From: an uncultured Clostridia bacterium
GTDB lineage: Bacteria > Bacillota > Clostridia > TANB77 > CAG-508
Assembly (NCBI GenBank): GCA_947631185.1
Contig: CANRKJ010000022.1
Span: 1 to 41,949, forward strand
Reading direction: 5' to 3'
DNA length: 41,949 bases
A program made the translations under genes and the position numbers. Positions 24,436-33,290 of the stretch are shown one piece after another. A model generated the notes under the pieces. It was not told the DNA's origin and searched no databases. It worked only from the letters and a program-made list of their open reading frames with translations. The first letter of the stretch is position 1; the number at the start of each line of letters is the position of its first letter.

Positions 24436-24464
24436 ATAATAAGATTTATTTCATTTTTTGTCAA
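24436..24464 (-). promoter_or_regulatory. Strong SigA-type promoter of greA
   Basis: -35 TTGACA (24459-24464), 17-base spacer, -10 TATTAT (24436-24441) on the minus strand. It overlaps the last codons of the upstream unrecognised gene and leaves a leader of about 58 bases. Confidence 0.8.
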
Positions 24465-25389
24465 GTATTTTCTTAACATCTTGAAAAAAATCTTCTATCT
24501 TTATAATTCCATTTTCATTTTCTAAACAGATAATTTGTATTTCATCTTTTTGTATCTCATTAAGTATATTAGATATACTTGTTCTTTTTTTTATAAAACT
24601 CTCATATACATTCATATAATTGAAATTATAAAAAAGCTCACTATATATAAGATATTTATTTGGCATAGCTATTTGAATTTTAGTTACATTAATTCCAGAA
24701 AAATCTTTTTTATTTATTTCATATTTATTACCTAAATTTATAAAACAAGCTTTATTATAAATCGTGTATTTCTTTATTCTATCTTCACTAAAATCAATAT
24801 TTACAATAATGTTGGATTTATTTAAACTTTTTCGATAATTATTTACTAAATTTATTTCAATTCCACAATCTTTAAAATATTTTTCTTCTATTTTTGAAAA
24901 TCTTTTAATATTACTCGTAACCACAGTTACCAATTTAAATCTACTTGCTAATAATTTTATATATTCTATAACTATTTCATAATCTGAATCTACTAAAAAA
25001 GCAATTTCATCAGTTTCAAAATCTTTTTTAGAAATATCATAAATATAATCTAATATATTTATAAGCATATATTTCATGCACCATAATCCATCACATATGT
25101 TTATTTCGTTTTCTTTAAAAAAATTCAAAACTTCATCTTTGTAAAACAATTCATCAGATATACAAACATTTTTCTGCCCTGTAATTTTTATTATTTTTTT
25201 TATTTTATTTATATATCTTTTATTAATTCTTGGAATAACATAAATAAATTTATCTTCCAATTTTTTCTTAACTACAATGCCAATTATAGACTTTATATTC
25301 CATATTATTCTTCTAAAATTTCCAAATTTAATATATTCATTTTCAGTTAAATAATCTTCATTATTTATTCCTAATTCAAAATACAACAT
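24451..25389 (-). CDS. Unrecognised Lys/Ile/Asn-rich protein, possible Rossmann-type domain
   Basis: I do not recognise this 312-residue protein. It lacks a signal peptide and transmembrane segments. The middle part (about 135-215) has an alternating pattern, DEIAFLVDSDYEIVIEY then KLVTVVTSNIKRF and SNIIVNIDF, that looks like a Rossmann-type strand-helix series, but no glycine-rich nucleotide loop is present. The C-terminal third has FINLGNKYEINKKDFSGINV and KIQIAMPNKYLIYSE. The open frame begins with GTG at 25401, but that codon overlaps the GAGGTGG ribosome site; ATG 25389, eight bases after it, is the likely start. Base composition matches the neighbours. It lies between the hairpin-repeat cluster and the greA promoter. 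Confidence 0.6.
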   Translation of the reverse strand: MLYFELGINNEDYLTENEYIKFGNFRRIIWNIKSIIGIVVKKKLEDKFIYVIPRINKRYINKIKKIIKITGQKNVCISDELFYKDEVLNFFKENEINICDGLWCMKYMLINILDYIYDISKKDFETDEIAFLVDSDYEIVIEYIKLLASRFKLVTVVTSNIKRFSKIEEKYFKDCGIEINLVNNYRKSLNKSNIIVNIDFSEDRIKKYTIYNKACFINLGNKYEINKKDFSGINVTKIQIAMPNKYLIYSELFYNFNYMNVYESFIKKRTSISNILNEIQKDEIQIICLENENGIIKIEDFFQDVKKILDKK

Positions 25390-25475
25390 AAGCTTATCCA
25401 CCTCTATATTAATATATTAAGAATAATTTATTTTAGAACAAATATATTTTATAAAATTAAATATTGTAAATTTTC

Positions 25476-25886: not shown

Positions 25887-27650
25887 TTATTTTTTGTCTT
25901 TAATATCTAATTTAATATGAACTTCTGAAAGTTGTTTATCTGTAACTTCACCAGGAGCTGACATCAATAAATCTTGTGCTTTACTATTCATTGGAAAAGC
26001 TATAACTTCACGAATTGATTCTTCTTCTGTTAATAACATTATCATTCTATCTACACCTGGTGCCACACCTGCATGAGGTGGAGCTCCAAATTGAAAAGCT
26101 TTATATAATGCACCAAATTTATTTTCAACAGTTTCTTCTGAATAACCTGCTATTTCAAATGCTTTTTTCATAATTTCAATATCATGATTCCTAACAGCAC
26201 CTGAAGACAATTCTATTCCATTACAAACTATATCATATTGATAAGCTAAAACTTCTAATGGATTTTTATTATTTAAAGCATCTAACCCACCTTGTGGCAT
26301 AGAAAATGGATTATGAGAAAATGCCACCTTTCCTCTTTCATCTAACTCAAACATTGGGAAATCAACAATCCAGCAAAACTTAAATACATCTTTTTCAAGT
26401 AAATCTAATCTAATTCCTATCTCTTTTCTAATTTCTCCTGCAAGTTTTTCTACAATTGGATGATGTTCTGCTATAAAAAATATACTATCTCCTTCTTTAG
26501 TTCCTGTTTGAGTAAGTAAAGCTTCTCTAGATTCATCTGGAATAAGTTTTGCAATAGGACCTTGGAAAGTTCTATCTTCGTTGACTTTTAACCATGCTAA
26601 ACCTTTTGCACCACACTCATTTATTGCAAACTCAGTCATTCCATCATAGAAGTTTCTAGTTTCATTTGCACCACCTGGAAGTGTAATTGTTCTAACAATT
26701 TTTCCATTAAAAACTTTGATATCTAATTTTTCAAAAATATTAGTAACATCTTGAATTATAAGAGGATTTCTTAAATCTGGCTTATCAGTACCATATTTTA
26801 ACATTGATTCATTATATGGAATTCTAACAAATTTTTTATCCATTTTTTTATTAGAAAATTTTGTAAAAGTATTATATAAAGTTTTCTCCATTACTTCAAA
26901 AACATCTTCTTGTGTAGCAAAAGCCATTTCCATATCTAATTGATAAAACTCTCCTGGAGATCTATCTGCTCTTGAATCTTCATCTCTAAAACAAGGAGCT
27001 ATTTGAAAATATTTATCAATTCCTGAAACCATTAACAATTGTTTAAACTGTTGTGGTGCTTGTGGTAATGCATAAAATTTTCCTGGGTAAATTCTACTTG
27101 GTACTAAATAATCTCTAGCACCTTCTGGTGAAGAACTTGTAAGAATTGGAGTTTGTACTTCTAAAAAGCCTTGCTCAATCATCTGATTTCTTAAATATTG
27201 AATAAGTTCTGCCCTTAATTTTATATTTTCTAATGATTTTCTTGATCTTAAATCTAAAAATCTATATTCTAATCTTAAATCTTCCCTAACACTTCTATTA
27301 TTTGCTATTTCAAATGGTAAAGTTTTAGTTCTTTTTCCTAGAACTTTAATTTCATCTGCAAAAAGTTCTACTTTTCCTGTTTCAATTGATTCATTAACAG
27401 TTTCATCATCTCTAAGTCTAACTTTTCCAGATACAGATATTGTTGATTCTATTGGAATTCTTGATGCAAAGTCAACTTTTTTCTCATCTCCTGATACTAC
27501 AATTTGAGTAATACCATATTGATCTCTTAAATCAATAAACAAAACTCCACCTAAATCTCTAATAGTATCAATCCAACCTGCAAGCTTAATTTCTTCTCCC
27601 ACGTTTGATTCTCTAATTTCTGAACAATTATATGTTCTGTACTCATTCAT
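25887..27650 (-). CDS. aspS: Aspartyl-tRNA synthetase
   Basis: Class II synthetase charging tRNA-Asp; in organisms without AsnRS a non-discriminating form also charges tRNA-Asn for the GatCAB route. Bacterial-type layout over 587 residues: N-terminal OB anticodon domain (VGEEIKLAGWIDTIRDLGG), class II motif 1 region, motif 2 (FRDEDSRADRSPGEFYQLDME, shown in part), the bacterial GAD insertion, and motif 3 (GVAPGVDRMIMLL). ATG 27650 has AGGAGGT upstream. It is controlled by the T-box leader at 27661-27885, whose predicted specifier is an Asn codon. That makes a non-discriminating enzyme plausible, though the sequence alone does not prove it. A terminator follows directly. Confidence 0.97.
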   Translation of the reverse strand: MNEYRTYNCSEIRESNVGEEIKLAGWIDTIRDLGGVLFIDLRDQYGITQIVVSGDEKKVDFASRIPIESTISVSGKVRLRDDETVNESIETGKVELFADEIKVLGKRTKTLPFEIANNRSVREDLRLEYRFLDLRSRKSLENIKLRAELIQYLRNQMIEQGFLEVQTPILTSSSPEGARDYLVPSRIYPGKFYALPQAPQQFKQLLMVSGIDKYFQIAPCFRDEDSRADRSPGEFYQLDMEMAFATQEDVFEVMEKTLYNTFTKFSNKKMDKKFVRIPYNESMLKYGTDKPDLRNPLIIQDVTNIFEKLDIKVFNGKIVRTITLPGGANETRNFYDGMTEFAINECGAKGLAWLKVNEDRTFQGPIAKLIPDESREALLTQTGTKEGDSIFFIAEHHPIVEKLAGEIRKEIGIRLDLLEKDVFKFCWIVDFPMFELDERGKVAFSHNPFSMPQGGLDALNNKNPLEVLAYQYDIVCNGIELSSGAVRNHDIEIMKKAFEIAGYSEETVENKFGALYKAFQFGAPPHAGVAPGVDRMIMLLTEEESIREVIAFPMNSKAQDLLMSAPGEVTDKQLSEVHIKLDIKDKK

Positions 27651-27660
27651 AAAAATACCT

Positions 27661-27885
27661 CCTTTTTATGCAATACAAAAAACCTTCCGTTCCTGTATTG
27701 CTACAGGGACGAAAGGTTAACTTCCGCGGTGCCACCCTATTTGAAAACATTATTTGTTTTCCACTTTATAATTTTTAAGCTCCAATGTGTTGCGTAAATT
27801 ATTCTTATTTAAGTGTTTCCAGCCAAGACACTTTTCTCTATAAAACAGTTTATAATTACTCCCATTTTCATTGCTTTTTTATATT
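27661..27885 (-). promoter_or_regulatory. T-box riboswitch of aspS
   Basis: Leader RNA that senses uncharged tRNA. The conserved T-box AGGGTGGCACCGCGG lies on the minus strand at about 27725-27739; its TGGC bulge suits a tRNA with discriminator base G. The terminator that competes with the antiterminator has arms around CCTGTA / TACAGG and ends in TTTTTT (27676-27719). Stem I occupies about 27782-27872, with base pairing CAATG/CATTG, an AGTA loop strand, the AGAGA bulge and a distal AAGTGT/ACACTT helix. By alignment with known Stem I structures the specifier is AAC at 27789-27791, followed by A and CAT. No GAC or GAT occurs in the Stem I region. Confidence 0.93.
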
Positions 27886-27889
27886 TCCA

Positions 27890-27919
27890 ATTTTACTACA
27901 GTTTTATTCATTTTGTCAA
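27890..27919 (-). promoter_or_regulatory. SigA-type promoter of the aspS T-box transcript
   Basis: -35 TTGACA (27914-27919), 18-base spacer, -10 TAAAAT (27890-27895) on the minus strand, just after the mltG stop. The predicted start near 27883 fits the beginning of the T-box leader. Confidence 0.75.
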
Positions 27920-31952: not shown

Positions 31953-33290
31953 TTAGATTTTCTCACAAATATATAAAGCATGTGAACTAAAACCAATTAA
32001 ATCTTGTCTTTCACATGTTGCCAAATGATATTTTATCCATTCTTCAAATTCTTCATTTTCTAAATATTCTATATCTTCACTTAAAATACTGGTAATTCCA
32101 TCTGTAGCTATATTGTTTAAAAACTTTGTATTATAGTTTTTCATTTTATTTTTAAAACTTTTTGTAGTACATACATAAAAAATTTCTTTTGGATCATTTT
32201 TTAATATAAAGTTTTCATCATGTAAATCTTTTTTATCTAATAAATGATGCTCTTTTAATAAATAATTTATAATTACACTATCATTAGTAATATATGAGAA
32301 AAATATTTTTCCATTTGGTTTTGTAACTCTTATTGCTTCTTTTATAGCTAAATCTTGTTCTTCTTCTGTAAATAAATGATACATTGGTCCTAAACAAAGT
32401 GTAATATCAAATGTATTATCAGGAAATTTCGTTAAATCTATAGCATTGGCTTTATGTATTCTTAAATTATCATTTTCAATTAATTTTAATTTTTCAAAAT
32501 TTACATCTAATAATTCTACAGCATCAACTTCATATCCTTCTTTAGCATAATAATTAGAATATACACCTGTTCCTGCCCCAATTTCTAAAATTTTATCACC
32601 ATTATTTAAATATTTATTTATGTATGTTGTTGTAGTTATAAATTCTAAATTTCCAACTCTTGATTTTTTTAAACGATTATCCTCATCACAATGTTCTGTA
32701 TAAAATTCTGATAATATATTATAAACACTATCTGTTTCTTTCTCATCTTCTTTAGATATGATTATTTGGGGAGTATCATTTTGTGCTTTATCTTCCTGTT
32801 TTACAATATTTTCTTCTTTTTCTATATAATAAGCCATAGGAGTAAATTCAATTCCATCTTCTTTTTGCATACTTGCTAAATCTTCAAAATCACAATTATG
32901 ATAGAAAGCAACTGAACATGGTGATGAATTTACTGTAATTTTTTCTATTTCTTCATCATTGTATTTACATATATCTATTGCAAATTTTAATAAATTTTTT
33001 CCAATACCTTTTCTATGAAATCTTTTATCAACAAATAATAAACTAATATGGTTTTCTGCTGATATAGCAACCATACCTATTATCAAATTTTCAGTAGTTC
33101 TAGCTACTAAAATTATCATATTTTGAGATTTTATTCTAGTTCTTATTGATTCTAAATTAATAAAATTATAAAAACTCTCGATTCCTTCTTGTTCATAATC
33201 AATTCCAACAAATTCATCAAATACTTTTTTTACTAAATCTAATGTTGCTGGTAACTCTTCTTCTTTTATGTAGTCTATTTTATATTGCAT
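31953..33290 (-). CDS. Fused GNAT acetyltransferase and class I SAM methyltransferase
   Basis: A 445-residue two-domain protein. The N-terminal half (about 1-155) is a GNAT N-acetyltransferase with the acetyl-CoA loop region RFHRKGIGKNLLKFAI and the later PCSVAFYHNCDFE. A Glu/Gln/Asp-rich linker (about 157-195) follows. The C-terminal half is a class I methyltransferase: motif I KILEIGAGTGVYSNYYAKEG, acidic end of strand 2 (VDAVELLD), and DITLCLGPMYHLFTEEEQ. The motif I glycines are intact, and both domains look active. Substrates are unknown. ATG 33290 has GGAGAG upstream. It is followed by yhbY and preceded by a terminator after the YdbC gene. Confidence 0.85.
   Translation of the reverse strand: MQYKIDYIKEEELPATLDLVKKVFDEFVGIDYEQEGIESFYNFINLESIRTRIKSQNMIILVARTTENLIIGMVAISAENHISLLFVDKRFHRKGIGKNLLKFAIDICKYNDEEIEKITVNSSPCSVAFYHNCDFEDLASMQKEDGIEFTPMAYYIEKEENIVKQEDKAQNDTPQIIISKEDEKETDSVYNILSEFYTEHCDEDNRLKKSRVGNLEFITTTTYINKYLNNGDKILEIGAGTGVYSNYYAKEGYEVDAVELLDVNFEKLKLIENDNLRIHKANAIDLTKFPDNTFDITLCLGPMYHLFTEEEQDLAIKEAIRVTKPNGKIFFSYITNDSVIINYLLKEHHLLDKKDLHDENFILKNDPKEIFYVCTTKSFKNKMKNYNTKFLNNIATDGITSILSEDIEYLENEEFEEWIKYHLATCERQDLIGFSSHALYICEKI

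Follow-up and report, generated by a model that had tools for sequence, protein, structure and literature searches.

Why should the leader of an aspartyl-tRNA synthetase (AspRS) gene present a codon for asparagine? The question is raised by a window of 41,949 nucleotides, the whole stretch of DNA analysed here, which is contig C22 of genome G000 (2.05 Mb, 78 contigs, 96% complete, 6.5% contamination). We suggest that a T-box responding to tRNA-Asn controls an AspRS that feeds Asp-tRNA-Asn to the amidotransferase GatCAB in this genome, a reading to which we give a probability of roughly 0.8.

The aspS leader and its specifier codon

A single Rfam match reached the gathering threshold within the window, a T-box (RF00230; 27880-27702, minus strand) scoring 94.8 bits where the gathering score is 93, with the model covered in full (1-219). 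It was recovered again by a T-box search over the whole genome, and the T-box that the first-pass annotation had placed upstream of aspS is confirmed by this score. The parts of the locus are:

27890..27919 (-): promoter-like site, -35 TTGACA (27919-27914), 18-nt spacer, -10 TAAAAT (27895-27890); consensus scan
27702..27880 (-): T-box leader RF00230; covariance model, 94.8 bits
27777..27876 (-): Stem I with the specifier loop, distal AGAGA at 27839-27835; covariance-model alignment
27789..27791 (-): specifier codon AAC (Asn), then A 27788; covariance-model alignment, clade leaders and eight control T-boxes
27785..27787 (-): 3' side of the lower helix, CAT, pairing with ATG 27865-27863; covariance-model alignment and pairing across the clade
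27743..27762 (-): Stem III hairpin GGAAAAC...GTTTTC; covariance-model alignment
27703..27740 (-): antiterminator with the 7-nt bulge TGGCACC (27734-27728); RNAfold of the segment
27677..27718 (-): intrinsic terminator, hairpin 27718-27681 and T run 27682-27677; segment fold
27658..27664 (-): ribosome-binding-site-like AAGGAGG ahead of aspS; sequence
25887..27650 (-): aspS, bacterial-type aspartyl-tRNA synthetase of 587 aa, T clade; profile matches and tree

The promoter had been described as clear. A TTGACA/TAAAAT sequence with 11 of 12 consensus matches does lie directly upstream of the leader, but it is weak as sole evidence, the scan returning 3 sites against 1.7 in shuffled sequences. Folded as segments with RNAfold, the antiterminator (40 nt, -11.8 kcal/mol) leaves its 7-nt bulge unpaired and the terminator (42 nt, -21.8 kcal/mol) is followed by the T run; the two overlap and are mutually exclusive. 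The terminator hairpin is also present in the MFE structure of the whole leader, and a simple consensus terminator scan did not flag it. Stem II is largely absent, the alignment having 0 bases for 40 model positions that separate Stem I from Stem III. Folding Stem I by itself produced no signal (z 0.99), and the evidence for the specifier loop therefore comes from the covariance model and from covariation.

The covariance-model alignment places AAC (27791-27789) under the consensus specifier 'uuc', with A 27788 and CAT (27787-27785) coming next; AAC is the asparagine codon that had been proposed here in place of an aspartate codon. As had also been stated, neither GAC nor GAT occurs in Stem I (27876-27777), and an Asp specifier elsewhere in that stem is ruled out for this reason. 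A Glu codon, GAA, read two bases upstream was ruled out too, being absent from the window sequence. The architecture proposed around the codon stood in part: the lower helix ATG/CAT agrees with the alignment and with pairing in related leaders (below), and the middle helix is present, but it is one pair longer than ATTAT/ATAAT, namely AATTAT/ATAATT (27857-27852 / 27802-27797), so that five bases (TACGC) and not six precede the codon.

The eight other G000 T-boxes with E<=3e-9 (nine in total with aspS) served as a control set, their genes being named from reading the protein sequences. The specifier position holds the cognate codon in all eight, in seven by model alignment (argS AGA, valS GTA and ileS ATC, L001-L003; serS TCT, tyrS TAC, pheS TTC and glyS GGA, L005-L008) and in one by eye (proS CCT, L009, which the model alignment did not return at its threshold). 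Among the nine, aspS is the sole mismatch between codon and downstream synthetase.

The tRNA-Asn of G000 has anticodon GUU, U1-A72 and G73. Its anticodon matches the AAC specifier, and the bulge matches its G73, with TGGC able to pair with GCCA-3'. The tRNA-Asp (G1-C72, G73, anticodon GUC) has a mismatch with the first base of AAC. Since both tRNAs carry G73, the bulge is unable to distinguish them, and it is the codon that does.

Two other genes of the window, both on the minus strand, deserve mention. A 316-aa ORF between aspS and greA (24451-25401) has no NCBIfam match at E 0.001. A 445-aa protein (31953-33290) shows weak matches to acetyltransferases around residues 45-145 and matches to methyltransferases that start near residue 218, and is possibly a fusion of the two.

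Related leaders and the two AspRS types

The comparison covered 38 genomes of the genus and order (G000 included), 42 genomes found via AspRS similarity, and 114 aspS genes. In a midpoint-rooted FastTree tree, 55 genes, including the window's, fall in a T clade (support 0.975) and 47, including a second G000 aspS on contig C5, in an N group (support as one clade 0.17), with 12 in neither. The nearest AspRS matches to the window's protein, at most 85% identical, come from uncultured Clostridia from metagenomes. From 80 AspRS-similarity loci, 43 were used and 37 left out (L021 and L026, which are G019 C2 and G011 C16; L039, L041, L048, L066-L095, L097, L098); among the latter a motif scan found the T-box motif only in L021. 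Also left out were some aspS fragments (G024 C110 and C134, G056 C68, G073 C14) and, in G078 and G079, the second AspRS; given the fragments, the status of G024 as N-only and of G056 and G073 as genomes with one AspRS is provisional.

The T-box motif was found upstream of 46 of the 55 T-clade genes and of none of the 47 N-group genes, 45 of which have at least 250 nt of upstream sequence. All 46 leaders carry AAC then A at the specifier (set by eye in four: G043, G058, G065, G068). AAC lies exactly 5 nt before GGAG[CT] in 42 and 6 nt before it in one, while GGAG is changed in three. In 44/46 leaders, the three bases that follow AAC-A on the 3' side can pair with three bases located 74-81 nt before the codon (ATG/CAT 32, ATA/TAT 7, GTG/CAC 2, GCG/CGT 1, AGG/CCT 1, ACA/TGT 1). 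Five equally wide control ranges yielded 8, 1, 2, 9 and 11 such leaders out of 46; a narrower test range gave 43/46 but picked up another ATG in the window. In predicted ensembles of the 46 leaders, AAC is unpaired with a mean probability of 0.78, against 0.50 for an average base (lowest 0.28, in G056).

The leader could also read another or a second codon, either CAA (Gln) in the -1 frame, which would make it a Gln/Asn two-codon switch, or ACA in the +1 frame. The window's loop is CAAC, so CAA and AAC share bases, and overlapping codons for two tRNAs are said to occur in the Clostridium acetobutylicum leader. The TBDB paper also permits frames of -1 and +1. We consider this highly unlikely, since the base preceding AAC varies (A 40, C 4, T 2), giving AAA, CAA and TAA as -1 codons, while AAC itself is constant in 46/46, and the same model position is cognate in every control T-box.

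The motif is missing in 8 of the 54 T-clade genes with at least 390 nt upstream; a ninth gene without it (G064) has only 16 nt. Five of the eight (G040, G042, G047, G062, G063) belong to genomes without AsnRS over the cut-off, which indicates that genomes relying on the indirect route alone can do without the switch. The genes without the motif include L022 (G040), L108 (G011), L047 (G062) and L049 (G063); in G040, which has no AsnRS over the cut-off, a promoter-like sequence immediately precedes the T-clade aspS.

The window's AspRS scores 643.1 bits with TIGR00459 (cut-off 373.85) and 790 bits with NF001750. The second G000 aspS has no T-box, and both enzymes are bacterial-type (TIGR00459 over cut-off). 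Given this T-box-free AspRS, the T-boxed one need not be the sole AspRS and may be a specialist of the asparagine branch. At the E. coli Lys81 site (script numbering), Lys is found in 42/42 alignable N-group sequences (of 47), Glu in 49/54 T-clade sequences (of 55) and Gly in two non-discriminating enzymes, the loop being aligned across a two-residue gap that adjoins the site in the N group. At the His position (R-D-H-G motif) of the P. aeruginosa and M. smegmatis enzymes, the T clade has Leu (42/54), Phe (10) or Met (2), and the N group Leu in 42/42, as in E. coli. We take His31 and Gly82 of P. aeruginosa AspRS to be determinants of non-discrimination; the window's enzyme has Leu at the first site and Glu, not Lys or Gly, at the second.

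We examined 40 T-clade loci for gatB, 36 of them with more than 2.5 kb available downstream. It lies 1.8-2.5 kb downstream on the same strand in nine (L027, L029, L031, L032, L033, L035, L045, L050, L057), eight of which have an AAC leader, that of the ninth (L050) being cut by the contig end; gatC and gatA sit between aspS and gatB in both loci checked (L029, L045). These nine are more distant relatives. Within the window's genus, gatB was found in 12 T-clade genomes, each time on a contig other than that of aspS.

In G043, G062, G065, G066 and G070, the T-clade AspRS is the only AspRS found, together with a LysRS-like match and gatB and with no AsnRS over the cut-off, so it should serve both tRNAs there. 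AsnRS is present in 10/10 genomes counted as N-group-only (for G024, with one aspS fragment left out). Conversely, all 18 AsnRS-lacking genomes have a T-clade AspRS (Fisher p 0.05, 65 genomes), a weak statistic, since similarity to that very AspRS is what brought 40 of the 65 into the set; in the genus alone the counts are 3/3 AsnRS-lacking vs 12/22 AsnRS-bearing genomes. This genomic context suggests that the T-boxed AspRS is non-discriminating.

The opposite assignment would make the T-boxed AspRS discriminating, for tRNA-Asp only, and leave Asp-tRNA-Asn to the T-box-free AspRS; the Asn-specific leader would then act as a nitrogen signal or be a relic. We find it improbable in view of the aspS-gatB arrays under an AAC leader, of the genomes in which a T-clade AspRS is the sole one found and AsnRS is lacking, of the Lys kept at the E. 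coli Lys site throughout the T-box-free group (42/42), and of the AsnRS that always accompanies a T-box-free AspRS on its own (10/10 genomes). It would nevertheless fit the Leu where two non-discriminating enzymes have His, an intact asnB (see below), and the absence of the T-box from five T-clade genes in genomes without AsnRS over the cut-off.

The route to Asn-tRNA-Asn in G000

A search of G000 with the AsnRS family found no asnS over the family cut-off. In family searches, gatB and gatA are adjacent on contig C7; gatC was recognised by similarity only, as a small gene near them that resembles the gatC-like gene of relatives. According to PMC4206432, bacterial GatCAB recognises U1-A72. For indirect formation of Asn-tRNA-Asn, G000 combines gatA and gatB, no AsnRS found, and a tRNA-Asn with U1-A72. 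The first-pass annotation had implied a genome with gatCAB and without asnS, which agrees with the presence of gatA and gatB, the lack of asnS over the cut-off and the loss of its locus described next.

The relatives G015 and G016 have asnS between scpB and mazF, and in G041 it follows scpB near the contig end. In G000, SMC, scpB (inverted), mazF, dus, rodA and minD, names assigned by reading the sequences, are together on contig C7, which contains no N; scpB and mazF are about 90 bases apart, with asnS absent between them. A tblastn search of C7 for an asnS remnant found none, matching only a LysRS-like gene. An earlier one-gene synteny test was uninformative, as the gene beside asnS is also unmatched in G038, which has asnS. 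An assembly gap as the source of the AsnRS absence in G000 was rejected, because the asnS locus is missing from a gap-free contig. The absence is not trusted for G001 (72% complete) and G012 (where gatA and gatB are missing too). The same region of C7 (~37900-43300; L219, L220), with its inverted scpB, also lacks a 480-aa ProRS-like gene that in relatives sits, like asnS, between SMC/scpB and mazF; G000 instead has a ProRS-like gene with a T-box (CCT) on contig C65 (L009).

Could asnS be present in the cell and absent from the assembly? Both routes would then coexist, as in most of the genus, where AsnRS is over the cut-off in 22/25 genomes, and the switch would serve on-demand tRNA-dependent asparagine synthesis. 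Genes do drop out of these assemblies, gatA and gatB being missing in G012, G018 and G022 despite no GlnRS over the cut-off, and asnS could still sit in the missing part of a genome that is 96% complete. Against this, the genes that flank asnS elsewhere lie together in G000 on one N-free contig without it, and we regard this alternative as quite unlikely.

Some observations on the other genomes are added here. Both gatA and gatB are missing from the assemblies G012, G018, G022 and G072 (GlnRS was not found over the cut-off in the first three), most likely through assembly gaps. Extra class II synthetase-like proteins scoring 209-266 bits with the AsnRS model, below its cut-off, occur in G013 C2 (L179), G030 C16 (L178), G031 C17 (L177) and G073 C15, and are perhaps archaeal-type AspRS or AsnRS relatives.

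The T-box search of G000 found none on C7, the contig of gatA and gatB, which implies that the mischarging and amidation steps are not co-induced. No GlnRS was over the cut-off in 38 genomes, so GatCAB should be needed for Gln-tRNA too. An asnB gene over the cut-off, with an intact open reading frame, indicates that G000 can probably make free asparagine as well. Loss of asnB was rejected as a cause of the indirect route, since asnB is over the cut-off in 26/38 genomes, G000 among them.

Proposed regulation and comparison with known systems

In the mechanism that we propose, a transcriptional T-box would bind tRNA-Asn through GUU on the AAC specifier and G73-CCA on the TGGC bulge. Uncharged tRNA-Asn would allow the antiterminator to form and the T-boxed AspRS to be made; with charged tRNA-Asn, the terminator would halt transcription of aspS. 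The T-boxed AspRS would load Asp onto tRNA-Asn, and GatCAB, encoded elsewhere, would amidate it to Asn-tRNA-Asn. If asnS has been lost, these two enzymes would be the sole source of Asn-tRNA-Asn in G000, with the T-box-free AspRS serving tRNA-Asp. An Asn-specific switch on aspS fits the apparent loss of asnS, since Asn-tRNA then needs a route through aspartate. From sequence we infer the cellular response to tRNA-Asn, the use of this tRNA by the T-boxed enzyme and the division of labour between the two AspRS. The earlier interpretation, an asparagine-tuned AspRS supplying the amidotransferase, is the most likely one, and the second AspRS is what we add to it.

A further step is possible, if rather doubtful. 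In lineages with two AspRS, including this genus, the T-boxed enzyme could be a dedicated maker of Asp-tRNA-Asn that prefers tRNA-Asn, is induced by its own tRNA and is uncoupled from the amidotransferase. A tRNA-Gln-specific GluRS2, known from other bacteria, would be its counterpart.

A T-box specifier can reveal the true substrate of a synthetase about which family models say only AspRS. Specifier callers that lean on gene annotation, as TBDB does in part, could miss the Asn reading. The T clade offers natural comparisons, with one or two AspRS, AsnRS present or absent, gatB linked or not, and the T-box kept or absent. There is also a testable question of fidelity, namely whether, with induction confined to the mischarging step, the amidotransferase is present in surplus or Asn codons are translated as Asp.

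The AspRS-GatCAB operon of C. acetobutylicum, an experimental precedent, reportedly has a T-box that responds to tRNA-Asn, with overlapping Asn and Glu codons. In contrast to that overlap, the loop is CAAC in the window and AAAC in 40/46 leaders. The G000 aspS differs further in lying apart from gatA and gatB, which are on C7 without a T-box, and in the apparent loss of asnS. T-box control of the C. acetobutylicum amidation route is cited (Saad 2012, 2013) in PMC4206432, which also gives this species three AspRS and an extra GatCAB and describes acquisition of a second AspRS as rare in bacteria; one of the three aspS genes bears a T-box (Wels et al. 2008, PMC2494555). The two cases share an Asn-specifier T-box ahead of the AspRS gene of the indirect route, as well as multiple AspRS genes. 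In the literature searched, from which subscription journals were mostly absent, no T-box on aspS together with a second AspRS was described outside C. acetobutylicum.

The aspS leader resembles the eight other RF00230 synthetase T-boxes of G000 in its Stem I, its antiterminator and terminator, and the single base that separates specifier from lower helix, and departs from ordinary synthetase T-boxes in that codon (Asn) and enzyme (Asp) disagree. Deinococcus radiodurans and Thermus thermophilus likewise have two AspRS, one of them assigned to tRNA-dependent asparagine formation with GatCAB (PMC4206432); there the second AspRS is archaeal-type, whereas both G000 enzymes are bacterial-type, one with a T-box. 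The principle is already known from C. acetobutylicum, and the G000 case is a well-supported variant of it, new in its stand-alone aspS, its T-box-free partner, the apparent loss of asnS and the conservation of the specifier across a broad clade.
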